Positions 1,626 through 57,997 of a stretch of 64,000 nucleotides of DNA are shown piece by piece. Position 1 is the stretch's first letter, and the number at the start of each line of letters is the position of its first letter. Location of the stretch: NCBI RefSeq assembly GCF_003315205.1, contig NZ_QNRR01000001.1:1-64000 (forward strand), in the 5' to 3' direction. The stretch is from Roseimicrobium gellanilyticum (GTDB lineage: Bacteria; Verrucomicrobiota; Verrucomicrobiia; Verrucomicrobiales; Verrucomicrobiaceae). The position numbers were made by a program, and so were the translations under genes. The notes below the pieces were generated by a model. That model worked only from the letters and a program-made list of their open reading frames with translations. It made no database searches and had not been told where the DNA came from.

Positions 1626-2729
1626 TCAAGCGGGTCGGGAATGGTCCAGCACCACATGCGCGATGCGCATGGCCGCGTCCGGCATGCTGTGGGCGAGCAT
1701 GTTCGCTTTCATGCGGCGGGCTTCGGCGCGGTTGTGCTCCAGCATCTTCGCCGCTTCACGGCCTGTCTCCTCGGGAGTGCGCGTGGTCACCCCGCAGCCG
1801 TGGCTGGTGAGCAGTTCCGCATTTCCCTCCTCCTGACCAGGTACTACATAGTCGATGATGGCCGGGCAGGTGGCCGCGAGTGATTCATGCAGGATGGCAC
1901 CCCCTGCCTTGCAAATCACGAAGTCATGCGTCTGCAGCAGCTTGGGAATCTGGTTCGTCCATCCCATGACTTCGATGTCCGCCTTTGGCAGGGAATCAGT
2001 GAAGCTGCGTACCACGTGGTGCAGGCGCGAGGCATGCTTGCCCACCGGCAGCGTCAGCCTCACTCCGGCAGCGACGAGCGGTCGCAGGGATTCGAGCGTT
2101 CTGGCGACGTGAGCTACTCCGGTGGAGGGCAGGTACAGCATGCGCCCGTGGGCGGAAATGCACTCTTCCGGCTTCGGTGGTGTCAGGAAATCCAGGCTGA
2201 CTGGAAAACCGGTGATGTGAACCTTCTCCGGTTCCGCGCCCAGTTTCACTGCACTGTCCTTGGAGGCCTCATCAGCCACGCAGTAGCCATCACTGGGGGC
2301 GATCAGCCACAGGGGATGGATGCTGATGGAGTCCGTGACCACCGTGTACACCGGCGGCACACGGTGCCCCATGGTCTTGATCTGCCCCAGCAGCTTCGAG
2401 TAAATGGGGTAGGTGCAGACGATGGCACGCGGCTGGTGCTTCTTCAGCAGTTCCCCGATGGCATTGCGCAGTCCGGCGGTGATGTCCGGTTTGCTGTCAA
2501 ATTTCATCCCGCCACTGTTCCGGTAGAACCACGCCCATGCCTTTGGAGCACGTGTGATCAGCATCTGGTAGTTCTGCTTCATCAGGGGCGCGAAGACTGG
2601 ATGCGCCTCATCAAAGACATCCACCACCAGGTGTTCTTCCTGGGGAGCGAGACGTTCCAGCGCGTTGCGCACATTGCGCGCCGCCGTGTTGTGTCCGTCG
2701 CCGAAGCCTGCCGTGAGTAGAAGTATCAC
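1626..2729 (-). CDS. Glycosyltransferase, MGDG synthase / UgtP-like (GT28)
   Basis: A 367-residue GT-B glycosyltransferase of the monogalactosyldiacylglycerol synthase / processive diacylglycerol glucosyltransferase type, expected to move a sugar from a UDP-sugar onto a membrane lipid. The N-terminal acceptor domain begins with the glycine-rich LLTAGFGDGHNTAARN, as in MGDG synthases. The C-terminal donor-binding domain shows CKAGGAILHESLAATCPAI and a following Q/E-rich stretch (PGQEEGNAELL), as in MurG/UgtP relatives. No membrane segment is evident, so it is probably peripheral. It overlaps the start region of the HAD phosphatase gene, so the two may be an operon. Acceptor lipid and product are unknown. 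Confidence 0.85.
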   Translation of the reverse strand: MILLLTAGFGDGHNTAARNVRNALERLAPQEEHLVVDVFDEAHPVFAPLMKQNYQMLITRAPKAWAWFYRNSGGMKFDSKPDITAGLRNAIGELLKKHQPRAIVCTYPIYSKLLGQIKTMGHRVPPVYTVVTDSISIHPLWLIAPSDGYCVADEASKDSAVKLGAEPEKVHITGFPVSLDFLTPPKPEECISAHGRMLYLPSTGVAHVARTLESLRPLVAAGVRLTLPVGKHASRLHHVVRSFTDSLPKADIEVMGWTNQIPKLLQTHDFVICKAGGAILHESLAATCPAIIDYVVPGQEEGNAELLTSHGCGVTTRTPEETGREAAKMLEHNRAEARRMKANMLAHSMPDAAMRIAHVVLDHSRPA

Positions 2730-2879
2730 CGTGAGTAAGGGAAATAGCCGTGCCGCAGAAGAGTGCGAAGGAAAAATGACAAATTAGACACGGCTCCCCA
2801 GTCCCTCCCTAAATCGGGATGAATCTTGTCATGAATCGGTTTTGGCTTGTGTCTTCCCGGTCAGAATCTTGAATCAGGC

Positions 2880-3776
2880 ATGGTCATCGGCATCACGGGA
2901 GCATCGGGATTCATTGGCAAGGCGCTGGCCCTCGCGGCGAAGGAGCGCGGGCACAAGGTCGTGGCCTTCACCAGAAAGAAGAACGGTGGCCTGCCCAATT
3001 TCGATGAGACCCGCGTGATTGTACCCACGGGGGATAAACCCGCGCTCGACCCCTCCGGTCTCGATGCCCTTGTGCACCTCGCCGGCGAGAGCGTGTACGG
3101 CTACTGGACTACCGCGAAAAAGCAGCGCATCCGTGACAGCCGTGTGGACCTCACCCGCCGCGTGGTGGATGCGCTCCAGGCTTGCAAAGAGGACGGCCCC
3201 AAGGTCTTCCTCTGCGCCAGTGGCACCGGAGCCTATGGTGACCGGGGCGATGAAATCCTCACCGAGTCTTCCAAGCGCGGCTGGGGATTTCTCGCGGATG
3301 TCTGTGCGGAATGGGAACGTGAAGCTGCCCGTGCGGCCACCTTTGGCACGCGTGTCGTGTATCTGCGCACTGGCATGGTGCTGGGGCAGGGTGGAGGTGC
3401 ATGGCCAGTCCTGCGCCGTGTCTTCAGCCTGCGCTTGGGTTCCCGGCTGGGTGATGGCCGGCAGTGGGTGCCCTGGATTCACCTTGATGATGAGGTGGGC
3501 CTCATCCTCGAGGCCATCGAAAACCTTGGCTACAGCGGCCCGGTGAACCTCGCAGCGCCCAATCCGGTGACGAATGCGGAGATGACCCGTACCATCGCGA
3601 ACCTGCTGAATACCTCCACCTTCATCCCCGTGCCCGGATTCGCCTTGAAGCTGGTGATGGGAGAGTTCGGCAGCGTGGCGCTGGAGAGTGCCCGGGCGAA
3701 GCCTGAGGTAGCCTTGAAGAATGGCTACGAGTTCAAGTACACCGACCTCGAGCACGCTCTCGCCATGTGCGTCTGA
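2880..3776 (+). CDS. TIGR01777 family NAD-binding epimerase-like protein
   Basis: A 298-residue extended SDR protein of the TIGR01777 (YfcH-like) family. The Rossmann motif GITGASGFIGKALA sits at the N-terminus. The middle shows the family signature CASGTGAYGDRGDE, with the tyrosine of the active-site region. The last 50 residues match the DUF1731 C-terminal helix region (VPGFALKLVMGEFGSVALES). Reaction and substrate are not established for this family. The ATG at 2880 was chosen because it places the Rossmann motif at the very N-terminus; an upstream in-frame start at 2847 would add eleven residues with no family counterpart. A foldback repeat begins directly after the stop codon. Confidence 0.9.
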   Translation: MVIGITGASGFIGKALALAAKERGHKVVAFTRKKNGGLPNFDETRVIVPTGDKPALDPSGLDALVHLAGESVYGYWTTAKKQRIRDSRVDLTRRVVDALQACKEDGPKVFLCASGTGAYGDRGDEILTESSKRGWGFLADVCAEWEREAARAATFGTRVVYLRTGMVLGQGGGAWPVLRRVFSLRLGSRLGDGRQWVPWIHLDDEVGLILEAIENLGYSGPVNLAAPNPVTNAEMTRTIANLLNTSTFIPVPGFALKLVMGEFGSVALESARAKPEVALKNGYEFKYTDLEHALAMCV

Positions 3777-4020: not shown

Positions 4021-4899
4021 ATGTCCGCCGCCCAGACCACCATTGGCCTCGTCTATGATTTCGATCAGACGCTCAGCCCCGGCTACATGACGGATGACGT
4101 CGTTTTCCCGAATTACGGCATCAGCGTCGAGCAGTTCTGGAAGCGTAGCCAGGCACTCGTGGACAAAGAGGGCTACGACAATGAGCTCGCCTACCTGAAG
4201 ACCATGCTGGACCTGCTCACGCCGGACCGGCCTACCAATGCTGAGCTGCGTGCACTGGGTCCGAAGCTGCGCCTCTACCCCGGTCTCCCTGAGATGTTCA
4301 CCGAGCTGGAGGCCCTGCTTGGTCCCGACCATCGGGCTCTGGGCGTGCGCCTGGAGCATTACATCATCAGCTCAGGACTTCGCGAATTACTGGAGGGCAG
4401 TGTGCTCCGTCCGCATGTGAAGGCCGTGTTCGGTTGTGAGTTCGCGCAGGATCGCGAGGGCCGCATCAGCTTCCCGAAGCGCGTCATCGGCCATACCACG
4501 AAGACGCAATTCCTCTTCCGCATCAACAAGGGCATGCTGGAGCCGCATGAGGATGTGAATGATCACATGCCCTCAGACATGCGCCCCATCCCCTTCCAGC
4601 ACATGATCTATCTGGGAGATGGCCCCACGGATGTGCCGTGCTTCACCCTCATGCGCCGGTACGGTGGCAATGCCATCGCTGTCTACAGCCCGGGAGACAA
4701 TACCCGGAAGAGCTTCCGCAAATGCTGGCAGCTCAGCGCGCACGCGGATCGCGTGAAACACATCGCGCCTGCTGATTACCGCGCCGGGAGCCATCTGCGC
4801 CTCATGCTGGAGGAAATGATCTCCGAAATCGCCGATGGCATCGTGCGCCGGAAACGTGCGGAGGTAGACAGCTCCATGGTGAGTGCGCCGGGGTTTTAG
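4021..4899 (+). CDS. HAD-superfamily phosphatase (phosphoserine-phosphatase-like)
   Basis: A 292-residue HAD hydrolase with an early motif I, VYDFDQTLSP (nucleophile D13, acid/base D15), motif II IISSG around residue 118-122, and motif IV YLGDGPTDVPC near 201. The long segment between motifs I and II would form the cap domain. It is longer than ordinary SerB-type phosphatases, so the substrate is unclear. There is no signal peptide, so the protein is cytoplasmic. It starts at the first ATG after foldback element A, from which it is separated by about 80 bp, and probably has its own promoter in that gap. Confidence 0.85.
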   Translation: MSAAQTTIGLVYDFDQTLSPGYMTDDVVFPNYGISVEQFWKRSQALVDKEGYDNELAYLKTMLDLLTPDRPTNAELRALGPKLRLYPGLPEMFTELEALLGPDHRALGVRLEHYIISSGLRELLEGSVLRPHVKAVFGCEFAQDREGRISFPKRVIGHTTKTQFLFRINKGMLEPHEDVNDHMPSDMRPIPFQHMIYLGDGPTDVPCFTLMRRYGGNAIAVYSPGDNTRKSFRKCWQLSAHADRVKHIAPADYRAGSHLRLMLEEMISEIADGIVRRKRAEVDSSMVSAPGF

Positions 4900-5103
4900 A
4901 GCCCTGAGAGCATGCGACCCGTGCATTCAGCAACGCAGCGCCGGCTTTGTTGCAAAATGCGGTCATTCTGAAGCTAAAGCATGCCTCATGAGTTCCTCTT
5001 GCAGTGACAATCAACTTGCGAGAATCCCCCCTTCATATCATCCTGAAGGCTGGGCGTAGCTGGCGTAAGCCGCACGCTTAATCCCCCTTCCTTACAACCC
5101 CCA

Positions 5104-8100
5104 ATGCCAAGCCTTCGCAAGCTGGGCGGCTTCATGTCGCTCGCAGGATCTTTGTTGTTTTCCATAACCAGCGTTTCCACGCTGACGGCGCAGACAAATA
5201 CCTATACCGGCGCTACAAGCGCTTGGAGTGTGGGTACCAATTGGAGCTTGGGCGAGCCAACGGCAGCGCATGATGTGGTGCTTCCAGGCGTTGTTCCTGC
5301 AAGTGGAGGAACGATCACGCTTGCTGCGGGAGAGCTGGCGAACAGCCTTTCGTTTCTGAATTCTTACACGCTCACGGGCGGGAACCTCACGCTCACCACA
5401 GGAAATATCAGCGTGGATCCCACTTTCACTGGGACCATCAGTTCCGTACTGCAGGGTTCCGTGGGGCTTGCCAAGGATGGAAATGGGATCCTCGTGCTTG
5501 GGGGTGCGAATACCTTCACCGGTACGGTGAATATCAATGCCGGTACTCTCTCCATTTCAAACAACAACAACCTTGGGGCCGCCAGCAACGGCATCAATTT
5601 CACGGGAAGTGGCACCCTTGATGTCACTGCCGCAGTGACTGCCGGTCGTGCCATGTTCATCGACGCCGGCATTGTGGGCACGATGAATATCACCACGGGC
5701 GTTGTCTTCCGCATTGATGGGGTGGTCAGCGGAGGGGGCACTCTTTCGAAGAATACTTCCGGGACCCTCGTACTGGGCAATGCGGCGAACACCCTGAGCG
5801 TCATTACCAGTGCCGGTGGGAACCTCCTTCTCGAAAGCAGTGGATCGCTGGGTGATGCCTCCACCACGGTCAACATCAACGGCGGCACGATTGGTGCGGA
5901 TGACAGTGGTATCAATACCTACACGGTAGGGACCTTGAACATCGGCGGGAATGTCCAGTTCGGGATCACGGCCTCAGGATTCACGGGGTCTCAGATCTTC
6001 AGCGGCACGGCGGTGGACTTGGGTGGAGCGGCCCGCACCCTGACCACCGACGAGGACGTGGTTTTCACCGGCATCGTGTCCAATGGCAGCATCGTGAAGG
6101 CGGGTGATGACTTCCTGCAGTTCAATAACAACCAAAACAGTTTCAACGGCCTGACTTTCAGCAACAACTCGTCTGTCTACCTCGGTGGCGATGATGTGCT
6201 TGGTTCAGGCATCATCACTTGGGCGGTGAGTGACGGACGTCTTCGGTCCAATGATGGCACGGCACGCATCCTGACGAACAACCTGGTTCTCAATGCCAAT
6301 GCGATCTTCGGCGCAGCAAGCACCGGCAACCTGACGATTGGAAAGGTTGGTGGCACGGTGGACTTTGGGACAGGCACGCGCACCATCAACGTGGACTCGG
6401 TCACCACCACCTTCCTCAGCGCGGTGGTCAATGGCACGGGCATGAGCAAATCCGGCTCTGGCACGGCCGTGTTCCTTGCGAGCAATACCATCACGGGTAA
6501 CGTCTCGATTGGTACGGGCAACATCACGGTGCGTGGTTCCACGGGCAAGCTGTCCACTGGTACGGGAGTTGTCACCGTGGGTGACAATAACGGCAATGAT
6601 GAAAGCCTCACCATTGGTGATGCCGGAGACTCGCTGAGCGGCACGGTGGATCGTCTGTCGGATGGCACCACCCTCCGCTTCAATGGCAGCACTTCTGCCA
6701 CGTTCAATGGTCCGGGGAATTCCATCACGGAAGTCATCGACGTACTCGATTTCGCCGCCGGCGTGGGCATCCTCACACTCAACCCTGCCGTGGGTGGTGA
6801 AATTCAGCTGAATGTCAACAATGCGACCGCCTCGCTCACCCGGTCCAACAACAACGCGATGGGCGTGATTCGTGGCACGGGACTCGGCCAGACAGGAGCG
6901 AACAGTACGCGTGTGATCTTCGCGGTCGCTCCGACCATGCTCGGCTTGGGAGGTACGGGAGCCAACACGAGCATCATCCCGTACTTGATTGGCGGTGACA
7001 GCACGACTGATGCTCCGGACACCTTCCTGACCTACGACGCTGTGAATGGAGTCAAGCCCCTGGCGGACTCGGACTACAGTGCCACGGTGACGGGCAGCCA
7101 TGGCCAGAACGTCAGCGTGGGCGCCCTTGCAGAAACCATCACCGGAGATGCGTCCATCAACGCCCTGCGGTTGACGGCTGGAGGCTCGATTGCCATGAAT
7201 GCTGGAGCCGATGTGGTGCTTCGTAGTGGCGCGCTCTTGTCGACGACGACCACGACCATCAGCGGACCTGGCACCCTGACCCTGGGTGAGTCTCTGGTGA
7301 ATGGCACAGGACAGGGACGTCAGGGGGTGATTTTCGCCTCTGCAAATGCGACACCCATTCTCCTCACCATCAATGCCAACGTTGGTACTGCGGGTGGTTT
7401 GATCGTGGGAGACGCTGGGAGCACGGGCCACACCATCGTGCTGGGTGGAGACAACAAGATCATTGGCGGCATTGTCCTGAACGGTGGTACCCTCCGGGCA
7501 GGCAGCGCAGGAGCGCTGAATGACAACTACTTCAACGACCTGGTTCTGCGTGCCGGCAACAGCACCACGGGTGGAGCGCTTTCGACAACCCTTCAGGTGT
7601 TCGGCAACAACATCTCCGTCATCTTTGGGGGCAACGATCGTCTTCAGGGAAGCACCCGTATCCAGAACGGAGCTGCGACCGCCGGTACCATCACCATCCT
7701 GGCCAATGTGGGCAACAGCGATGGCAATGACGGGGTGCTCGAAAATGGAAGCGGTGGCGGGGTGCTGAACGTGGCGAAGCGTGGCGCCTTCCGCGTGCAA
7801 CTGGAGTCGAACAATTCCTACACCGGCAGTACCGAGATATTCTCGGGCGAGCTTCGCGTGACGGGCTCTGGAGGGCGACTCAGTGGCACCACTTCGCTCA
7901 ACATCCGTGGCGGCGGTAGCTTCTATACTTATAAGCAAAGCGACCAGAACGTGGATCGCGTCAACGATGGCGCTGCGGTGAACATGCACCAAGGCAGCTT
8001 CCTGGTGGACCAGAATCAAAGCGCATTCAACCTGGCAGAGACCTTGGGGGCGCTGAACATCCTCAACGGGGATAACACCATCCAGGTGGAAGCCTCTGTA

Positions 8101-50058: not shown

Positions 50059-50691
50059 CTATTTAGTCTCCACCGTCTCCAGCAGTGGCGAGCTGAAGAC
50101 GTCGCACGGGCAGATGACCTCCATCGCATAGGGCACCTTGTCCCCGTAGCGCTCCTTCAGAATCTTCTGCACGGCGGCGTGGGAGAGGTCGAGTTCCTTC
50201 AAGGTGCGGAGCTCTCCCAGCTTGATACCGGAGGCGCGGTCGTAACCTTTCCAGACGAGTTCCGAGCAGTAGATGCTTTCGTCCGACCACTCAAAGAGCC
50301 AGTCATAGTTCTTGCCCAGCATGGTGGTGACTTCCTTCTTGAGCGCCACCGTGTCCAGCTTGGACGGGTCCTTCAGCCGCTTGATAACATAGTGCTCTTT
50401 GTCCCCGCGCTTGATCCACTCGTCGAGCGGTGCCTTGCCCACGGGTTGCACCGCCTCGTACACGACCGGCTTCCCATCCTCGATGAAGATGACGCCCATG
50501 TGGGTGAACTCCGAGTGCGTCGCCGCTGCAATGGCGGCCGCCTGGCTCGTCAGCGAACGGTGGAAAATGATGTCGCCGTCGCGGACTGGGATGTCCGGGG
50601 AGTGAGGTGGCGTTTCCGCGAATGCGGCTGTGGACAGCGCGACTGCCAGTCCCAAGATGGTGGTGAAGAAAGTCACAGGTCTCCGGCCCAT
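50059..50691 (-). CDS. Secreted YiiX-like NlpC/P60-superfamily hydrolase
   Basis: A 210-residue exported protein. The signal peptide is MGRRPVTFFTTILGLAVALS through TAAFA. The domain is the permuted papain-like YiiX/YebB type: DGDIIFHRSLTSQAAAIAAA, the His in SEFTHMGVIFIEDGKP, and the probable catalytic Cys in ESIYCSELVWKGY. Such enzymes are thought to cleave amides in peptidoglycan or lipids, but the substrate is not established. Length and motif order fit the family. The ATG at 50691 gives the signal peptide; the open frame runs to 50742. Confidence 0.87.
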   Translation of the reverse strand: MGRRPVTFFTTILGLAVALSTAAFAETPPHSPDIPVRDGDIIFHRSLTSQAAAIAAATHSEFTHMGVIFIEDGKPVVYEAVQPVGKAPLDEWIKRGDKEHYVIKRLKDPSKLDTVALKKEVTTMLGKNYDWLFEWSDESIYCSELVWKGYDRASGIKLGELRTLKELDLSHAAVQKILKERYGDKVPYAMEVICPCDVFSSPLLETVETK

Positions 50692-50931
50692 GGGAATTTC
50701 TACTCCTGATTGTGATTGGTGGCAACTGGGAGCGGAAGGCAATTGTGGAGGGGCGCTCAGGTGCAGAGTGGATGGTGCTTCGGGGGCTTGGGTGCGTGTT
50801 CGTTTCGCGGCGATTCATACACGTATCCCATGGTACTTAAGTGCCCGCCTGCCGTATTCTTCTTCCAAGGTGCCGAGGTTGAACGAGCGCGTTGAAATAT
50901 GCGTGGGACGTCGCGGGTAGATGTTGCCCGC

Positions 50932-53900
50932 ATGACACGCGCTGCCTTTCTCCTTTGCACCCTCGCGCTTCTGGTTGTCGGAGCTCGCCCTTCATCTGCG
51001 CAGGAAGCGGCACCCGCCTTCCGCGCTGGCGTTGCCGCGATCGACATCACCCCGCAGAAGTTCCCCGTCATCGTGAATGGAAACTTCACCGAACGACTCG
51101 CGCAGCAGGCCAATGACAAGCTGCATGCACGCGCCATCGCGATGGATGATGGCCGCACCAGGCTAGTGCTCTGCGTGGTGGACACATGCATGATGCCGCG
51201 CGAGGTCATCGATCAGGCGAAAGCTATCGTGGCGAAGGAGACCGGGTTGGCCATGTCCCACATGACTGTGTCTGCCACGCACACGCACAGTGCACCTGCG
51301 GCCATGGGCTGCCTCGGCAGCCGTGCGGACCCCGAGTACACAAAGTGGCTGCCGGGTAAGGTCGCGGAGGCGATGATGACGGCGCTCAAGAACTTGCAAC
51401 CCGCGAAGGTCGGCTGGGCCTCGGTGGACGACTGGGAGCACACGCACAACCGCCGCTGGATCTACCGACCGGACCGCATCCAGAGCGACCCCTTCGGAAA
51501 TCCCACGGTGCGTGCCATGATGCATCCGGGGTATGAAAGCCCCAATCATGTGGGCCCCTCCGGACCAGTGGATCCAGGACTCAGCGTGCTGGCCTTGCAA
51601 ACGAAGGACGGCAAACCCCTCGCGCTCTTCGCGAACTATTCGCAGCACTACTTCGGCGCCTCGGCGGTGTCGGCGGATTACTACGGCGCCTTCTGCAAGC
51701 ATGTGGCGAAGCTGCTGGGTCAGTCGTCCAGCGAAGGCCCCTTCGTTGCCATGATGTCGCAGGGCACCAGCGGCGACCTCATGTGGATGGACTACGGCAA
51801 GCCCAAGCAGAACATCTCCATGGATGCCTATGCAGAAGCGGTGGCGAAGCGGGCACTGGAGGCGTGGGGGAAGGTGGAGTTCCGCGACAGCGTGCCGCTC
51901 GGCATCGTGGAGAAGAAGATTCCGCTCACGTATCGTGTGCCGGATGAGGCCCGCCTGAAGTGGGCGCGTGAAACCATGGCAGTAGTGAAGGACCGGCTCC
52001 CCACGAGCAAGCCGGAGATCTATGCGAACGAGGCCATCCTGCTGCACGAGAAGCAGAAGACAGAACTCGTGCTGCAGGCGCTGCGCATCGGTGATCTCGG
52101 CATCACCACGCTGCCGAATGAAGTCTTCGCCCTCACCGGATTGAAGCTGAAGGCGCAGTCTCCTTTCACGTCGCATTTCAATATTGAGCTGGCCAATGGC
52201 GCGGAGGGATACATCCCACCGCCGGAGCAGCACAAGCTCGGTGGCTACACCACGTGGCCTGCGCGTACGGCGGGCCTGGAGGTGCAGGCGGAGCCGGTGA
52301 TTGTGGAGACACTGCTGAAGGCTGCGGAGGAAGTGTCCGGCTTGAACCGGCGCGTCATGACGCAGGGCAGGGGAGCGTATGCGGAAGCGGTCCTTGCAGC
52401 GAACCCACTGGCATATTGGAGGCTGGATGAAGCGGTGATCCCGAAGGCCAGTGATGCCACAGGCTCGAAGGAACATGCCGCCGATATCGAAGATGGCGTG
52501 GCGCTCTATCTCGAAGGTCCCGAAGGTGAGGCCTTCTCAGGAAAAGACATCAATCGCGCCATGCACTTCGCTGGCGGCCGTGTGCATGGTGCAGTGAAGG
52601 AACTGGGAGATACCTACAGCGTGGAGTTCTGGTTCTGGAATGGACTACCGGAAGATGCCCGTCCAGTGACAGGCTACCTCTTCTCGCGCGGGCCGAATAA
52701 AGACCGCTCCTGTCCCGGTGATCACCTCGGCATCGGCGGCACGCATGCGGACGGGTCTCCGGGAAGGCTCATGTTCTACAACGGCGATGGCAAGCGCAAA
52801 CTCCTTGCGGGTTCCACGCTTCTTTCCCAGAAGACCTGGCATCATGTAGTGCTCACGCGCTCGAAGAATCAGGTGCGTGTGTATCTCGATGGGAAGACCA
52901 AGCCCGAGATTGAAGGTGAGCTGGAATACACGCTGCCGCAGGGCGTGAAGGATGTCTTCCTCGGCGGACGCAGCGATGGCTTCGCGGGGTTGGAGGGCAA
53001 GATGGATGAAGTCGCTCTCTATAGCAGGGTGCTCACCGCCGATGAGGCGGCAGCGCACTACCGTGCCTCTGGACTCACACCGCCTCGTGCTCGCACGGAG
53101 ACCTCAGCGCTTTCTCCAGAGGAATCCCTCAAGCGCATCCATGTGCCGAAGGGATTCGCTGTCGAGCTCGTCGCTGCGGAACCACTCGTATTGGACCCTG
53201 TGGCCTTCGATTGGGATGACCGTGGCCGCCTCTGGGTAGTGGAGATGGCGGACTATCCCCTCGGCATGGATGGCAATGGCAAGCCGGGCGGTCGTGTTTC
53301 CATCCTCGAAGACACCAACCAGGACGGCAAATACGACAAGCGCACACTCTTCGCGGAAGGACTGCGTTTCCCCACCGGCATCCTCACGTGGCGCGATGGC
53401 TGCCTCATCACGGCCGCACCGGAAGTGCTGCTGCTGCGCGACAAGGATGACGACGGCAAGATGGATGAGAGCAAGGCGCTGCTCACTGGATTCATGGAAG
53501 GCAATCAGCAACTTCGCGTGAATGGTCTCCGCTGGGGACTCGATGGCTGGGTGTACTGCGCGAATGGTGGACACACGGCGAACTATGGCAAGGACGTGAA
53601 TGTCACCTCCACGCTCACGGGTGAGAAGGTGGCACTGGGCAGCCGCGACTTCCGCTTCAAGCCGGACACAGGTGAAATCGATCCGCTGAGTGGCCCCGCG
53701 CAGTTTGGTCGCACGCGGGATGCCTGGGGGCACTGGTTTGGTGTGCAGAACAGTTATCCCCTCTGGCACTATGCGTTGGAGGACCGTTACCTGCGGCGCA
53801 ACCCTCACGTGGCACCGCCTTCGCCGAAGGTGATGCTCACGGAGCCCAATGCTCGTGTGTTTCCCGCCAGTGCGCAGGAGAAGCGCTTCCACAGCTTTGA

Positions 53901-55929
53901 CCAGGCAGGTCGCTTCACTTCTGCGTGCGGCCCCACCATCTATGGAGACGATGCCTTGTTTGGCCGGCGTGGGGTGACGGATGCGTTTGTCTGCGAGCCC
54001 TTCCACAATGTAGTGCAGCATCTCGTGCTGGAGGACGACGGCGCGACCTTCAAGGCATCGCGCGATGCTTCCGAGAAGCTCGACTTCTTCGCCAGTGAGG
54101 ATCGCTGGTGTCGTCCCGTGATGGTGCGCACAGGTCCGGATGGTTCGCTGTGGGTGGCGGACATGTATCGCTACATGATTGAGCATCCGCAGTGGCTGCC
54201 CACGCAGGGCAAGGAGGAACTGTTGGCGCATTACCGCGAAGGCGATGATCGCGGGCGCATGTATCGGGTGTTCGCGGGAACGAAGGCGCCGTCAGCCAAT
54301 GCGGACCTGAGCAGGCTGGATGGTGCAGGTCTCATCTCCTTGCTAGCCAGTTCGAACAGCTGGCTGCGCGACAAGGCCCACATGATGTTGCTGTGGCGTG
54401 CGGACAAATCCGTGGTGCCGCAGCTCATTGGTTTCCTGCAAAATCATCCCAGCCCCTCCGCCCGTCTTCATGCGCTCTGGCTGCTGCACGGATTCGGTGC
54501 CTTGCAAAGCGCTCAGCTCATCGCTGCCCTGTCCGACCCAGTGCCAGGGATTCGTGAGAGTGCCTTGAGGCTCGCAGAGAAGACTCAAGACGCCGCGGTG
54601 ATTCAAAAGGCCGCAGCCCTCGCGGGTGATTCCGACGCGAAGGTGCGCCTGCAACTGCTCAGCTCCCTCGGCGAGTGGAAACATCCTGCGGCCAGCGCTG
54701 CCTTGGTGAAACTGGCTCTGGCGAAGTCCGATGCCACACTGGAGCGCGCCGCACTGGCGGGCTCCGCCACCGCGCATCTGCCTGCGCTGGCAGATGCGGC
54801 ATCGTCGAATCCCACCCTCATGGAGACGGTGGTGCGCACGGCGCTCGGAGCGGGAGATGCAGGCATCGTGCGCGACCTTGCGGCTCCCGTACTCGCGAAG
54901 GCAAAAACCAGCGACGAGCCCTCCCTTCGCAATGTGAGCACCCTTTTGCGAGCCTTGCGTGATGCGGGTAGTTCCCTGGACACACTGGCTGCAAAGCATC
55001 CTGAAGACGCTGCATGGCAAAGGCTGAAGGAGTCGAAGGGTGCGCTATTGCAGAAGGTGCGCGAGTTTGCGGCCAGTGGAGACGCAAGTCCTTCGGCTGC
55101 TCGTCTCATCGCGGCTTCCATCCTGTTGGCGGATGCCGGCGAAGGTAGTGGAGCCATTGAGTTGGTGGGGCGTTGGATGCAGATGCCTGCATCAGCAGAA
55201 ACCTTCGGCGAGTGCGTCGCGTTGCTGGCCTCATCATCAGACCCGCGCATCCCAACGCTGTTGCTTGCGCAATGGAACGAACGCACACCGCGCCAGCGCG
55301 AAGCCGTACTGGATGCGTTGCTTGGCAGGGAAGGCTGGGCGCTGACGTTGTTAAAGGAGATCCAAGAAGGCCGCATCACCAGCAGCAGCCTCGATGCGCA
55401 GCGGCAGACGCGCCTTTTCAAGCATCCCGCGAAAGCGGTGAGCAAGCTCGCAGGTGAAGTCATCAAGGCACGCGATTCACGCCAGCAGGTGCTGGACAAG
55501 TTCCGCCCGGCGCTCTCGCTTACCGGTGACCCGGCAAAAGGAAAGCAGACATTCTCTCAAGCCTGCATCGCCTGTCATCAGCTCGAAGGCGTGGGCCTCG
55601 CCGTGGGACCGGACCTGCGCTCCGTGGTGCAGCATCCACCGGACAAGCTCTTCACTTCCATCCTGGATCCCAGCGCTATCATCGAGCCCGGCTTCACCGC
55701 TTATTTCTGCGACCTCAAGAGCGGCAGCCAGGTGTATGGTGCCATCGCCAGCGAGACCGGCAGCAGCGTTACCCTGCGCCTCGCGGACGGCAGCCTCAAA
55801 CCCGTGCTGCGCTCGGAAATCAACAAACTGCAAAGCTCCAACCTGTCCCTCATGCCCGATGGCTTGGAGGCGTTGCTCACCCCGCAGTCGCTGGCGGATT
55901 TGATTGCGTATCTGCGGTTGCCGAAGTGA
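50932..55929 (+). CDS. Giant exported ceramidase-like / LamG / PVC-dehydrogenase / HEAT / cytochrome c fusion
   Basis: A 1,665-residue exported multidomain protein (1,676 if the ATG at 50899 is used). After a signal peptide (MTRAAFLLCTLALLVVGARP) come: a neutral/alkaline ceramidase-like hydrolase domain (about 25-455) with zinc-type His in SATHTHSAPAAMG and QGTSGDLMW; a LamG/concanavalin-like domain (about 482-715, LAYWRLDEA to VALYSRVLTADEAAAHY); a PVC-type dehydrogenase propeller (about 730-1120, GFAVELVAAEPLVLDPVAFD); a HEAT-repeat stretch (about 1130-1500); and a C-terminal cytochrome c domain with one haem motif CIACH (about 1545). Propeller, HEAT and haem together are a known planctomycete-verrucomicrobial layout; the ceramidase-like and LamG parts in front are an unusual addition. 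Function unknown; extracellular oxidative degradation is a guess. Confidence 0.9.
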   Translation: MTRAAFLLCTLALLVVGARPSSAQEAAPAFRAGVAAIDITPQKFPVIVNGNFTERLAQQANDKLHARAIAMDDGRTRLVLCVVDTCMMPREVIDQAKAIVAKETGLAMSHMTVSATHTHSAPAAMGCLGSRADPEYTKWLPGKVAEAMMTALKNLQPAKVGWASVDDWEHTHNRRWIYRPDRIQSDPFGNPTVRAMMHPGYESPNHVGPSGPVDPGLSVLALQTKDGKPLALFANYSQHYFGASAVSADYYGAFCKHVAKLLGQSSSEGPFVAMMSQGTSGDLMWMDYGKPKQNISMDAYAEAVAKRALEAWGKVEFRDSVPLGIVEKKIPLTYRVPDEARLKWARETMAVVKDRLPTSKPEIYANEAILLHEKQKTELVLQALRIGDLGITTLPNEVFALTGLKLKAQSPFTSHFNIELANGAEGYIPPPEQHKLGGYTTWPARTAGLEVQAEPVIVETLLKAAEEVSGLNRRVMTQGRGAYAEAVLAANPLAYWRLDEAVIPKASDATGSKEHAADIEDGVALYLEGPEGEAFSGKDINRAMHFAGGRVHGAVKELGDTYSVEFWFWNGLPEDARPVTGYLFSRGPNKDRSCPGDHLGIGGTHADGSPGRLMFYNGDGKRKLLAGSTLLSQKTWHHVVLTRSKNQVRVYLDGKTKPEIEGELEYTLPQGVKDVFLGGRSDGFAGLEGKMDEVALYSRVLTADEAAAHYRASGLTPPRARTETSALSPEESLKRIHVPKGFAVELVAAEPLVLDPVAFDWDDRGRLWVVEMADYPLGMDGNGKPGGRVSILEDTNQDGKYDKRTLFAEGLRFPTGILTWRDGCLITAAPEVLLLRDKDDDGKMDESKALLTGFMEGNQQLRVNGLRWGLDGWVYCANGGHTANYGKDVNVTSTLTGEKVALGSRDFRFKPDTGEIDPLSGPAQFGRTRDAWGHWFGVQNSYPLWHYALEDRYLRRNPHVAPPSPKVMLTEPNARVFPASAQEKRFHSFDQAGRFTSACGPTIYGDDALFGRRGVTDAFVCEPFHNVVQHLVLEDDGATFKASRDASEKLDFFASEDRWCRPVMVRTGPDGSLWVADMYRYMIEHPQWLPTQGKEELLAHYREGDDRGRMYRVFAGTKAPSANADLSRLDGAGLISLLASSNSWLRDKAHMMLLWRADKSVVPQLIGFLQNHPSPSARLHALWLLHGFGALQSAQLIAALSDPVPGIRESALRLAEKTQDAAVIQKAAALAGDSDAKVRLQLLSSLGEWKHPAASAALVKLALAKSDATLERAALAGSATAHLPALADAASSNPTLMETVVRTALGAGDAGIVRDLAAPVLAKAKTSDEPSLRNVSTLLRALRDAGSSLDTLAAKHPEDAAWQRLKESKGALLQKVREFAASGDASPSAARLIAASILLADAGEGSGAIELVGRWMQMPASAETFGECVALLASSSDPRIPTLLLAQWNERTPRQREAVLDALLGREGWALTLLKEIQEGRITSSSLDAQRQTRLFKHPAKAVSKLAGEVIKARDSRQQVLDKFRPALSLTGDPAKGKQTFSQACIACHQLEGVGLAVGPDLRSVVQHPPDKLFTSILDPSAIIEPGFTAYFCDLKSGSQVYGAIASETGSSVTLRLADGSLKPVLRSEINKLQSSNLSLMPDGLEALLTPQSLADLIAYLRLPK

Positions 55930-55974: not shown

Positions 55975-56268
55975 ATGATCCGCCACACCGTCGTCTTCCG
56001 TTTGAAACACGCCACAGGCTCCGCCGAGGAGCGCGACTTCCTTGAGGCCGGACTGAAGCTCGCAGCCATTCCCGGTGTGGAGAAGTTTGAGGCGCTGAGG
56101 CAGGTCAGCGTGAAGAATCCCTACACCTTCGGCTTCTCCATGGAGTTCGCCTCGCAGGAAGCCTACAACTTCTACAGCAGCCACCCCGACCACGACCGCT
56201 TTGTGCAGGAGCGGTGGATTCCGGAGGTGGCGGAGTTCATGGAGATTGATTATGTGGCGGTTTCTTGA
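55975..56268 (+). CDS. Dabb (stress-responsive alpha/beta barrel) domain protein
   Basis: A 97-residue Dabb-domain protein. It starts MIRHTVVFRLKHATGSAEER and has the core GVEKFEALRQVSVKNPYTF, then FSMEFASQEAYNFYSSHPDH and a conserved end (ERWIPEVAEFMEIDYV). These small dimeric barrels lack a common reaction. It begins 45 bp after the giant fusion gene on the same strand and could be transcribed with it. It ends three bases from the convergent SUFU gene. Confidence 0.9.
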   Translation: MIRHTVVFRLKHATGSAEERDFLEAGLKLAAIPGVEKFEALRQVSVKNPYTFGFSMEFASQEAYNFYSSHPDHDRFVQERWIPEVAEFMEIDYVAVS

Positions 56269-56271
56269 GTC

Positions 56272-56961
56272 TTACGCACAGACATTCTCGCGATCTTTTA
56301 CTATCACCTCGACAACACCTGCCTCATCCAGCTTCTCAAGGAGTGCCATGGAACCTGACTTCATGGCAAATTGCCATTCCTCCCGGTAGATGGGTAGGAT
56401 GGTGAGGAAATGAATTCGTTTTTCCGGGCTAATTTTGAGAGAACACCCTTCTTCATCACACAACAAGGGCACCGAGACGATGTTTGCGCAGAAGCCAACG
56501 TCAGGCGCAAACGCTTCAGGTTCTTCTCCGTCCGCAATGGTGTGTGCGTACCAAAGGTCGTATTGGTGTGCATGCGGAGCTCGGGCGGCGCGCGTTAGCT
56601 GCCGGATGGGCCAGTAGTTCCGTTCATCGGAGAAGCTCGCGTGGTTAATCGGCCAAGTGTCCGGCACCGCGAGTATTAATTCGACGTACCCGAAGTCCTC
56701 GCCGCCTTCCCGCACTTTCATAGGGCGGTCACTCATGCCGGAGGTGATGAGCACACGATAGGGACGCTCAGGAGTTGGAGCCACCACGTGGATATCAATG
56801 TGCACGAAGGACGACTTCTTCTCATGAAGAACGAATTCGATGGATCCCCAATAGCGTTTGATGTGAGCACTGATTGCTTCCAGATCGCGGGCAGATTCGA
56901 ACCCGAGATGGGAATCCGGCACTGAATCAAGGGAATCTGGCTTGTCTGGAGCTTGGGACAT
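56272..56961 (-). CDS. Suppressor-of-fused (SUFU) domain protein
   Basis: A 229-residue soluble protein of the bacterial SUFU family. The pattern VLHEKKSSFVHIDIHVVAPT, PYRVLITSGMSDRPMKV, YVELILAVPDTWPI and IREEWQF-type end (ILPIYREEWQFAMKSG) is characteristic. Bacterial SUFU proteins are often immunity proteins of polymorphic toxin systems, but no toxin gene is visible next to this one. It is convergent with the Dabb gene and divergent from parB. No signal peptide. Confidence 0.88.
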   Translation of the reverse strand: MSQAPDKPDSLDSVPDSHLGFESARDLEAISAHIKRYWGSIEFVLHEKKSSFVHIDIHVVAPTPERPYRVLITSGMSDRPMKVREGGEDFGYVELILAVPDTWPINHASFSDERNYWPIRQLTRAARAPHAHQYDLWYAHTIADGEEPEAFAPDVGFCANIVSVPLLCDEEGCSLKISPEKRIHFLTILPIYREEWQFAMKSGSMALLEKLDEAGVVEVIVKDRENVCA

Positions 56962-57088: not shown

Positions 57089-57997
57089 ATGGCTAAACCA
57101 GCACTCGGCAAAGGACTCGGAGCATTGATCGGCAAGGCTGCCGCTCAACCGCCTGCGTCTGCGCCCGCCTCCTTCACTCCGCAGCCCGCGCCGGGCGAGA
57201 TCGTTCGCAAAGTTCCCCTCAGCGAGGTGGTGCCCAGTCCGCTGCAGCCGCGCAAGGAGTTCGCGCCCGAGCATCTCACGGAGCTGATGGATTCCATCCG
57301 CGAGCACGGCATCATCCAGCCGCTCATCGTGCGCCTCGTCCATGGCAAGCATGAACTCATCGCCGGTGAGCGCCGTTTCCGTGCGAGTCGGGAGCTGGGT
57401 CTGAGCGAAGTGCCCGTCATCGTGCGCACTGCGTCGGACAAGGATGTGCTGGAGATGGCGCTCATTGAGAACCTCCAGCGTGAGAACCTCAATCCCCTCG
57501 AAGAAGCACAGGCCTATGTGCGTCTCGCGAAGGAGTTCGGCCTCAAGCAGGAAGACATTGCCCAGCGCGTCGGCAAGAATCGCGCCACCGTGGCGAATGC
57601 CATCCGCCTTCTGGAATTGCCGGGTGGTGTGCAGAACTACCTCCGTGATGGCAAGCTGAGCACCGGTCATGCAAAGGTGCTGCTCTCGCTGAAGAAGGCC
57701 GAGGACATTGAGGTTGCCGCGGAGGAAGTCATTCGCAAGTCGCTCACCGTGCGTGCCACGGAGAAGCTCGTGGAGGGCATCCTCAATCCTCCCGCGCCGA
57801 AGCCGAAGCCATCCGCACCGGATGCCGAGCTGAAGGTGGCTCTCGATTCCATCCAGACACGCCTCACGCGCCATCTCTCCACTGGCATCGCCATTCATCA
57901 CGGCGAGAAGAAGGGCAAGGTCGAGATCGAATACTACAGCGTGGATGATCTCAATCGCCTGCTTTCGGCGATGGGCTTGCCGGATGAGGTGTCGTAG
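57089..57997 (+). CDS. parB: Chromosome-partitioning protein ParB
   Basis: A 302-residue ParB/Spo0J protein. It starts with KPALGKGLGALIGKAA, a motif typical of chromosomal ParB and linked to ParA interaction. The CTPase/N-domain motifs are LQPRKEF, IIQPLIVRL and GERRFRASREL; the helix-turn-helix that binds parS is LKQEDIAQRVGKNRATVANA. The C-terminal dimerisation region follows a Pro/Lys linker. No parA lies directly upstream: the neighbouring gene is divergent. No parS sequence was identified in the window by eye. Confidence 0.93.
   Translation: MAKPALGKGLGALIGKAAAQPPASAPASFTPQPAPGEIVRKVPLSEVVPSPLQPRKEFAPEHLTELMDSIREHGIIQPLIVRLVHGKHELIAGERRFRASRELGLSEVPVIVRTASDKDVLEMALIENLQRENLNPLEEAQAYVRLAKEFGLKQEDIAQRVGKNRATVANAIRLLELPGGVQNYLRDGKLSTGHAKVLLSLKKAEDIEVAAEEVIRKSLTVRATEKLVEGILNPPAPKPKPSAPDAELKVALDSIQTRLTRHLSTGIAIHHGEKKGKVEIEYYSVDDLNRLLSAMGLPDEVS

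Follow-up and report, generated by a model that had tools for sequence, protein, structure and literature searches.

We analysed a stretch of 64,000 nucleotides from Roseimicrobium gellanilyticum (contig NZ_QNRR01000001.1, positions 1 to 64,000; below, the window), concentrating on a single gene at 50932..55929 (+) that joins a candidate zinc hydrolase to a propeller protein with a haem site. The open reading frame (ORF) on the plus strand is uninterrupted from an ATG at 50899 (1676 amino acids, aa) to 55929; position 50932 is an internal in-frame ATG and gives a protein of 1665 aa with a signal-peptide-like opening, whose numbering is used throughout. Residues 1-23 (50932..51000) were judged by eye to be a likely Sec signal peptide. 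They are followed by a zinc hydrolase domain of the neutral-ceramidase fold, here named CER1 (about residues 30-472, 51019..52347; PF04734, profile match and model), a LamG (concanavalin-A-like) domain (residues 559-706, 52606..53049; Laminin_G_3, E-value 4.5e-16), a DUF7133/TIGR02604 propeller (residues 728-1114, 53113..54273; E-values 4.2e-152 and 6.1e-82, respectively), a HEAT-repeat linker that is helical in the predicted model (54274..55521; HEAT_2, E-value 1.5e-8) and a TIGR02603 c-type cytochrome domain (residues 1532-1662, 55525..55917; E-value 7e-36), all on the plus strand. Both TIGR02604 (275.9 bits vs a cut-off of 122.2) and TIGR02603 (123.2 vs 68.15) exceed the curated NCBIfam cut-offs. 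The same domain order had been proposed earlier from the letters of the window (the original prediction), and the ORF mapping and the Pfam and NCBIfam matches agree with it. An orthologue from the same genus is 91% identical across residues 1-1665.

The Pfam match of CER1 is borderline: PF04734 (Ceramidase_alk) covers residues 30-125 with an E-value of 8.1e-8 and 31.8 bits, just below the curated cut-off of 32.1. The matter is settled because a profile of homologues and an AlphaFold2 model both match the neutral ceramidase 2zws. The profile, built on 28 homologues, finds 2zws (E-value 1.2e-12) and 4wgk (E-value 1.6e-9). The model (pLDDT 93.8) aligns with 2zws at Z 38.9 and a root-mean-square deviation of 3.5 over 396 residues, and the structural alignments to neutral ceramidases are at 18-19% identity. 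A chance match is ruled out by the profile match and this Z-score. Judged by the model, the ceramidase fold is real, as the original prediction of a ceramidase-like hydrolase had it.

The residues that we take to be the zinc ligands of 2zws are placed by the profile alignment at His117, His239, Glu397 and Tyr427. The first lies in the triplet His117-Thr-His119 (51280..51288, +), which presumably supplies both a zinc ligand and the pocket histidine; the others, likewise presumed ligands, are His239 (51646..51648, +; His204 in 2zws), Glu397 (52120..52122, +; Glu411) and Tyr427 (52210..52212, +; Tyr448). His119, Arg174, Tyr427 and Tyr439 occupy the positions of residues that are critical in human ASAH2, according to the accessible part of PMC6952831. 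All seven zinc-site and catalytic positions (His117, His119, Arg174, His239, Glu397, Tyr427, Tyr439) are kept in 100 of 100 CER1 sequences, two further rows of the 102 being cut by contig ends and omitted. For Tyr427 and Tyr439 this conservation is partly built in, both being contained in the patterns that found 80 of the loci in named genomes; the other five positions are free of this bias. A loss of the metal-binding residues, which the original prediction had named as its weak point, was not found in these homologues.

The amidase motif has diverged. In neutral ceramidases this motif, GDVSPN, includes Ser354 of the human enzyme, a residue that steadies the arginine (PMC6952831, same part). 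Here its place is taken by Met284 (51781..51783, +), and across the 100 CER1 sequences the position holds Met in 67, His in 18, other residues in 15 and Ser in none. Two loci from outside this set, L251 and L253, have a Ser one residue earlier. The NCBIfam equivalog for neutral ceramidase, NF041649, scores 16.5 bits vs a cut-off of 1200. The alignment with 2zws stops at residue 490 and LamG comes next, with no C-terminal ceramidase domain. By its sequence, CER1 is probably a zinc hydrolase and not a ceramidase; the plain ceramidase assignment was set aside on the NF041649 score and on the amidase-motif Ser missing in 100 of 100 sequences. The same genome also encodes a paralogue of 755 aa (L060; G000 C11:36565-38571) that is 48% identical and has the ceramidase and LamG domains without a propeller.

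The fusion of CER1 to the propeller recurs in other genomes. In a set of 57 (the own genome, G000, and 56 relatives), ORF mapping found the two in a single frame in 29, namely the own genome, L029-L055 and L065, whose frame is cut by a contig end, and as separate genes in two (G005 and G041); with at most nine candidates scored per genome, absence from the remaining ones is unproven. A scan of named genomes found at least 569 relatives; 80 of them entered the analysis. The pooled set comprises 102 unique CER1 loci: 69 are fused to the propeller, 31 are not, and two are cut by contig ends. Their record titles name Verrucomicrobiota, Planctomycetota and Acidobacteriota, with one bin each of Hydrogenedentota, Bacteroidales and Burkholderiales, such titles being unreliable for bins; the 69 fused loci are labelled Verrucomicrobiota, Planctomycetota and, once, Hydrogenedentota. 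Some bins (L096, L119, L129, L142 and others) bear the title Akkermansia muciniphila or Candidatus Kuenenia stuttgartiensis, and their CER1 genes group with Prosthecobacter or other lineages; these titles look unreliable. The E-value thresholds, set by us, differ between the genome searches.

When 103 CER1 domains are placed on a quickly built maximum-likelihood tree, the fused or split label needs 15 changes, at least eight of them forced by well-supported branches; the mean for shuffled labels is 26.7. Fusion and splitting have occurred repeatedly. Some of the split loci may be frameshifts. Adjacent split genes were seen only in L140 among the 31; in it the propeller frame continues backwards, without a stop codon, into the last part of the first gene, which suggests a possible frameshift. 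In a sample of 288 genomes of the phylum, CER1 occurs in nine and a close propeller in six; for each of the two, five lie in frames as long as a fusion. A tblastn search of plasmids with CER1 returned nothing at 1e-20.

The model of the propeller, HEAT and haem regions has a pLDDT of 89.4 and a pTM of 0.87. The best matches of the propeller are sugar dehydrogenases dependent on pyrroloquinoline quinone (PQQ) and AA12 enzymes, at Z 22-26 (26.3 to 3a9g, 26.0 to 6i1q), with DFPase-type and other propellers close behind at Z about 22. The sequence comparisons were less informative: the GSDH Pfam family (PF07995) is not among the 11 families matched by the fusion protein at E-value ≤ 1, the profile search with the propeller matched no PDB sequence, comparing its profile with that of GSDH yielded nothing that could be aligned usefully, and the GSDH profile search showed alignments only to Hedgehog-interacting-protein. 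Fifteen of 20 GSDH loci entered the alignment (A6). Gln860 (53509..53511, +), which lies in the signature NQQLR, is present in 68 of 68 near relatives, own protein included, and in the same set nine positions are identical throughout (N858, Q860, L861, R862, E771, D774, Y775, R927, W935). With an offset of one residue, Gln860 may correspond to the catalytic histidine of GSDH proteins. Among 35 propeller proteins of the own genome (33 of them DUF7133 by Pfam; eight more frames with weak or partial TIGR02604 matches were left out) this position holds His in 16, Gln in five and other residues in 14, the distant alignments being uncertain. One of the five Gln-type proteins (L200) carries a 3keto-disac_hyd domain. 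The original label of a PVC-type dehydrogenase holds in so far as TIGR02604 and TIGR02603 are over cut-off; in its usual PQQ sense it is unproven, given Gln for His and the search results for PQQ genes described below. The own genome has at least 35 such propeller 'dehydrogenases' and neither a PqqC match nor a PqqE match over cut-off.

The haem attachment motif C1545-x-x-C1548-H1549 (55564..55578, +) is found in 60 of 60 sequences, own protein included, as is Met1641 (SLMPxG; 55852..55854, +), which bears out the haem site of the original prediction. Met1641 is likely to be the distal haem ligand, by analogy, because the haems of Kustd1711, the best Foldseek match of the model, are of the His/Met type. 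The Foldseek matches come with no stated range, and we take this one to concern the haem domain. Kustd1711 is a diheme c-type cytochrome with His/Met ligands and potentials of about +350 mV, according to the accessible part of its description. The LamG model matches AbnA at Z 22.8 and domain 4 of AbnA alone at Z 22.2; its matches to sialidases and to lectin domains of clostridial toxins are read as a shared fold only.

Close relatives of the propeller exchange their N-terminal partners. Among 392 genomes from the phylum to which G341 belongs (the source of L110, with a Rhodopirellula title), 17 have a close propeller (E-value ≤ 1e-130), in 18 matches, and 11 of the 18 were examined. Three carry CER1-LamG (L251, L253, L254). 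In L252 (7163-12325, -) the propeller is fused to a divergent ceramidase and a 3keto-disac_hyd domain, in L260 to another ceramidase domain, in L250 (6025-9810, -) to 3keto-disac_hyd alone, and in L255 (6539-11896, -) to a polysaccharide deacetylase (24.6 bits vs a cut-off of 23.1). Three have no N-terminal partner (L248, L249, L256), and L261 has an N-terminal region of unscanned content. The partner-swapped propellers are 52-62% identical to that of the CER1 fusion. The 35 own-genome propeller proteins have as Pfam partners ThuA (6), GDSL (5), copper-binding (4), F5/8 type C (4), 3keto-disac_hyd (3), NPCBM (2), LamG (2) and ceramidase (1). By analogy, these partner domains point to a glycan over a lipid; the deacetylase as an alternative partner favours deacylation, and 3keto-disac_hyd and ThuA favour a keto-sugar product.

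Ceramidase-like domains other than CER1 also accompany such propellers. Divergent ones are fused C-terminally in L037 and L039 and N-terminally in L082 and L092, and a ceramidase-like gene is a neighbour in L030-L032, L041, L059, L119, L122, L127 and L129. The zinc residues are kept in one divergent type; another (L066, L067) has Pro at the second His and keeps the amidase motif as GDQSP, in an alignment of about 24% identity that could be off. Genes of this second type lie next to unfused or fused propellers at L066:12530-14095 (+), L067:12498-14066 (+) and L258:8949-10415 (-). The propeller of L258, which the gene adjoins, is unfused and 73% identical to that of the CER1 fusion, and a relative of the L258 gene (46%) is fused to the propeller in L252. 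In L260 a third type is fused; in L257 it is an adjacent gene overlapping that of the unfused propeller (51% identical). The two ceramidase-like sequences are 42% identical to each other. The zinc-site residues are kept in CER1 of L251, L253 and L254 and in the domains of L260 and L257; L252 has Pro for one His. Three ceramidase-like types (CER1, the L252 type and the L260 type) are therefore fused to near relatives of the propeller, in line with the link between hydrolase and propeller that had been proposed.

The gene for a Dabb protein of 97 aa (55975..56268; PF07876, E-value 1.3e-18), a neighbour already named in the original prediction, follows on the same strand after 45 bp and is possibly co-transcribed with the fusion gene. 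A dedicated search found a same-strand Dabb gene within 3.3 kb of eight of the 102 CER1 loci. With five Dabb genes in the 7.93 Mb of the own genome, the 102 loci, 1.43 Mb in all, should contain about 0.9 by chance, which speaks against a chance neighbour; related loci are non-independent, and the rate comes from the own genome only. The 117 close same-strand neighbours of these loci include, by Pfam, DUF1501 (8), HisRS (8), amine oxidase (4), sulfatase (4), 3keto-disac_hyd (4), GntR/FCD (4), ceramidase (4), SASA (3), Dabb (3) and ThuA (at least 1). Downstream of the fusion gene of L034 lie a 3-keto-disaccharide hydrolase gene (2552-3592, -) and a DUF1501 gene (4734-6131, -). In the window, the Dabb gene is adjoined by a gene for a SUFU-domain protein (56272-56961, -), and a parB-like gene is next (57089-57997). 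On the other side, a gene for a YiiX-family permuted papain-like amidase (50062-50742, -; above the NCBIfam equivalog cut-off) is divergent from the fusion gene. A promoter and terminator scan of the region gave counts no different from those of shuffled sequence.

For the protein as a whole we tentatively favour, with somewhat less than even confidence, a secreted glycan-processing fusion in which deacylation is followed by ring oxidation with electrons delivered to the haem. The enzyme would be secreted and be periplasmic or at the cell surface, and LamG would hold a glycan or glycoconjugate. The zinc centre of the ceramidase fold would strip an acyl group, bound as amide or ester, through attack by a zinc-bound water. 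The propeller would then oxidise a ring hydroxyl, most likely giving a keto sugar, and the electrons would leave the propeller singly, reaching first the covalently bound haem c and then the respiratory chain. Such a keto sugar may be cut by 3-keto-glycoside hydrolases elsewhere in the cell; some relatives have domains of that type fused to a propeller of this kind. DUF1080 proteins have been proposed as periplasmic 3-keto-glycoside hydrolases (PMC9007349, accessible part). The original suggestion that hydrolysis is directly followed by oxidation is plausible, and we infer the order. It had left the substrate as a lipid or a glycan: the partner domains favour a glycan, and ceramide is not supported, the amidase-motif Ser and the C-terminal ceramidase domain being absent. 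A dependence of the propeller on CER1, which would have put CER1 first, was dropped as an argument, since each occurs alone.

Several observations weigh against this glycan-processing reading. At the position of the presumed catalytic His, found in 16 of 35 own-genome paralogues, the fusion has Gln. PqqE is above cut-off in none of the 57 genomes; weak matches occur in all 57, and this search had no positive control. PqqC is above cut-off in six of 288 genomes of the phylum; all six belong to one other family and act as a positive control. A further family gives two weak matches, and the host genome gives none. As far as gene content tells, these bacteria probably do not make PQQ; its uptake is possible. 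The proposed oxidation is thus left without an identified cofactor, because of the Gln, the lack of PqqE over cut-off and the lack of PqqC in the host. Moreover, the CER1-propeller pair is not obligate. A genome search for the propeller covered 27 of the 31 split CER1 loci (27 genomes): 15 genomes have no match at E-value ≤ 1e-100, and five have one at ≥ 60% identity. The fetched flanks of 30 of the 31 split loci show no close propeller, L085 having a distant one only (34%). Conversely, in L248, L249, L256 and L259 a propeller is present, and the sequence fetched around it contains no ceramidase-like gene. The neighbour counts are small, and HisRS with its eight occurrences implies that many neighbours are incidental. 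Finally, DUF1080 members have also been reported as glycosidases (THTE_1561), in a source available in part, so their presence is no proof of a keto sugar.

One alternative reverses the steps: the propeller would make a keto-glycoside, and the zinc site of CER1 would cleave the bond activated by oxidation, in the manner of the ThuA and 3-keto-disaccharide-hydrolase domains that sister proteins have in fused form. We consider this rather unlikely. The frequency of 3keto-disac_hyd (3 of 35) and ThuA (6 of 35) among own-genome partners and the presence of 3keto-disac_hyd on the close propeller relatives of L250 and L252 would suit it, and the lost amidase-motif Ser leaves room for changed chemistry; however, the remaining ceramidase pocket residues are all kept, a deacetylase is found as the alternative partner in L255, and CER1 occurs in genomes lacking a close propeller (15 of 27). 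Another alternative is mere co-localisation, or a propeller that is a non-catalytic scaffold for binding or electron relay, 'dehydrogenase' being a misnomer. The Gln at the presumed catalytic position, the PqqE and PqqC results, the fold matches to DFPase-type hydrolases (Z about 22) and the pair being not obligate are all consistent with that. The nine-position signature identical in 68 of 68 relatives, the haem motif in 60 of 60 and the several different hydrolases joined to such propellers make it an improbable explanation in our view.

It is still less probable that the protein is a true secreted ceramidase acting on sphingolipids, with the propeller oxidising a released part. The fold is that of ceramidases, and the protein keeps the one His, one Arg and two Tyr to which a critical role is ascribed in human ASAH2 (PMC6952831, accessible part); on the other hand, the Ser is missing in 100 of 100 sequences, the neutral ceramidase equivalog falls far short (16.5 bits vs 1200), and the 2zws alignment gives way to LamG after residue 490. 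An artefact of assembly or gene calling that joined two genes, a possibility raised by the original prediction, would fit the separate genes of G005 and G041; it is refuted by the counts, CER1 and propeller sharing one gene in 29 of the 57 genomes and 69 of the 102 unique loci, and we give it practically no credence.

We offer a wider reading as speculation and consider it doubtful. The propeller-HEAT-haem proteins of the superphylum may form a modular, PQQ-independent platform for glycan oxidation, each propeller type being coupled in cis to metal-dependent deacylases or keto-glycoside hydrolases that can be exchanged, the Gln-type having an unfamiliar redox chemistry, so that deacylation, ring oxidation and cleavage would come together on one chain. 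Haem-propeller proteins are abundant, with 35 from the own genome alone. The intact zinc site of a conserved, covalently joined partner offers a way to their substrate: the molecule oxidised is probably the product of the hydrolase or a neighbour of it. The missing recognisable PQQ genes make the question of the propeller cofactor testable.

Titles and abstract openings in the partial literature lists that we searched (subscription journals being outside their scope) contain no mention of a haem protein of this kind with a ceramidase joined to it, and we claim no absence on this basis. The domain partnership is conserved and apparently undescribed, within a family that is known but uncharacterised. 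Neutral ceramidases (2zws, 4wgk; PF04734) share with CER1 the fold of the catalytic domain, the zinc-site residues and the pocket His, Arg and two Tyr; the fusion differs in lacking the amidase-motif Ser and the C-terminal ceramidase domain and in having LamG and the propeller. The pathway of Caulobacter LacABC and DUF1080 is comparable by analogy only, as a periplasmic sugar oxidation followed by a proposed keto-glycoside hydrolysis, and the accessible part of PMC9007349 mentions neither a ceramidase fold nor such a fusion. Soluble PQQ sugar dehydrogenases and the CAZy family AA12 have the same propeller fold (Z 22-26), whereas the fusion lacks a GSDH Pfam match, the presumed catalytic His and a PqqC match in its host. 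Kustd1711 (7zs0) resembles the haem half as best Foldseek match, with CxxCH and the conserved Met, but has two haems where the fusion has one. The PSCyt ('Planctomycete-specific' cytochrome) proteins likewise carry haem and come from this superphylum, and carbohydrate-binding domains, Laminin_G_3 among them, occur in some; nothing was known of the functions of their genes according to the accessible part of a 2017 paper (PMC5615132); they are defined by other domain models, and the kinship is compared by description only. With the PVC-type haem-binding CxxCH proteins (TIGR02604/TIGR02603, DUF7133) the fusion shares both NCBIfam models over cut-off and the propeller-HEAT-CxxCH order; from these it differs by its N-terminal ceramidase-fold hydrolase and by Gln for the His of 16 of 35 paralogues.

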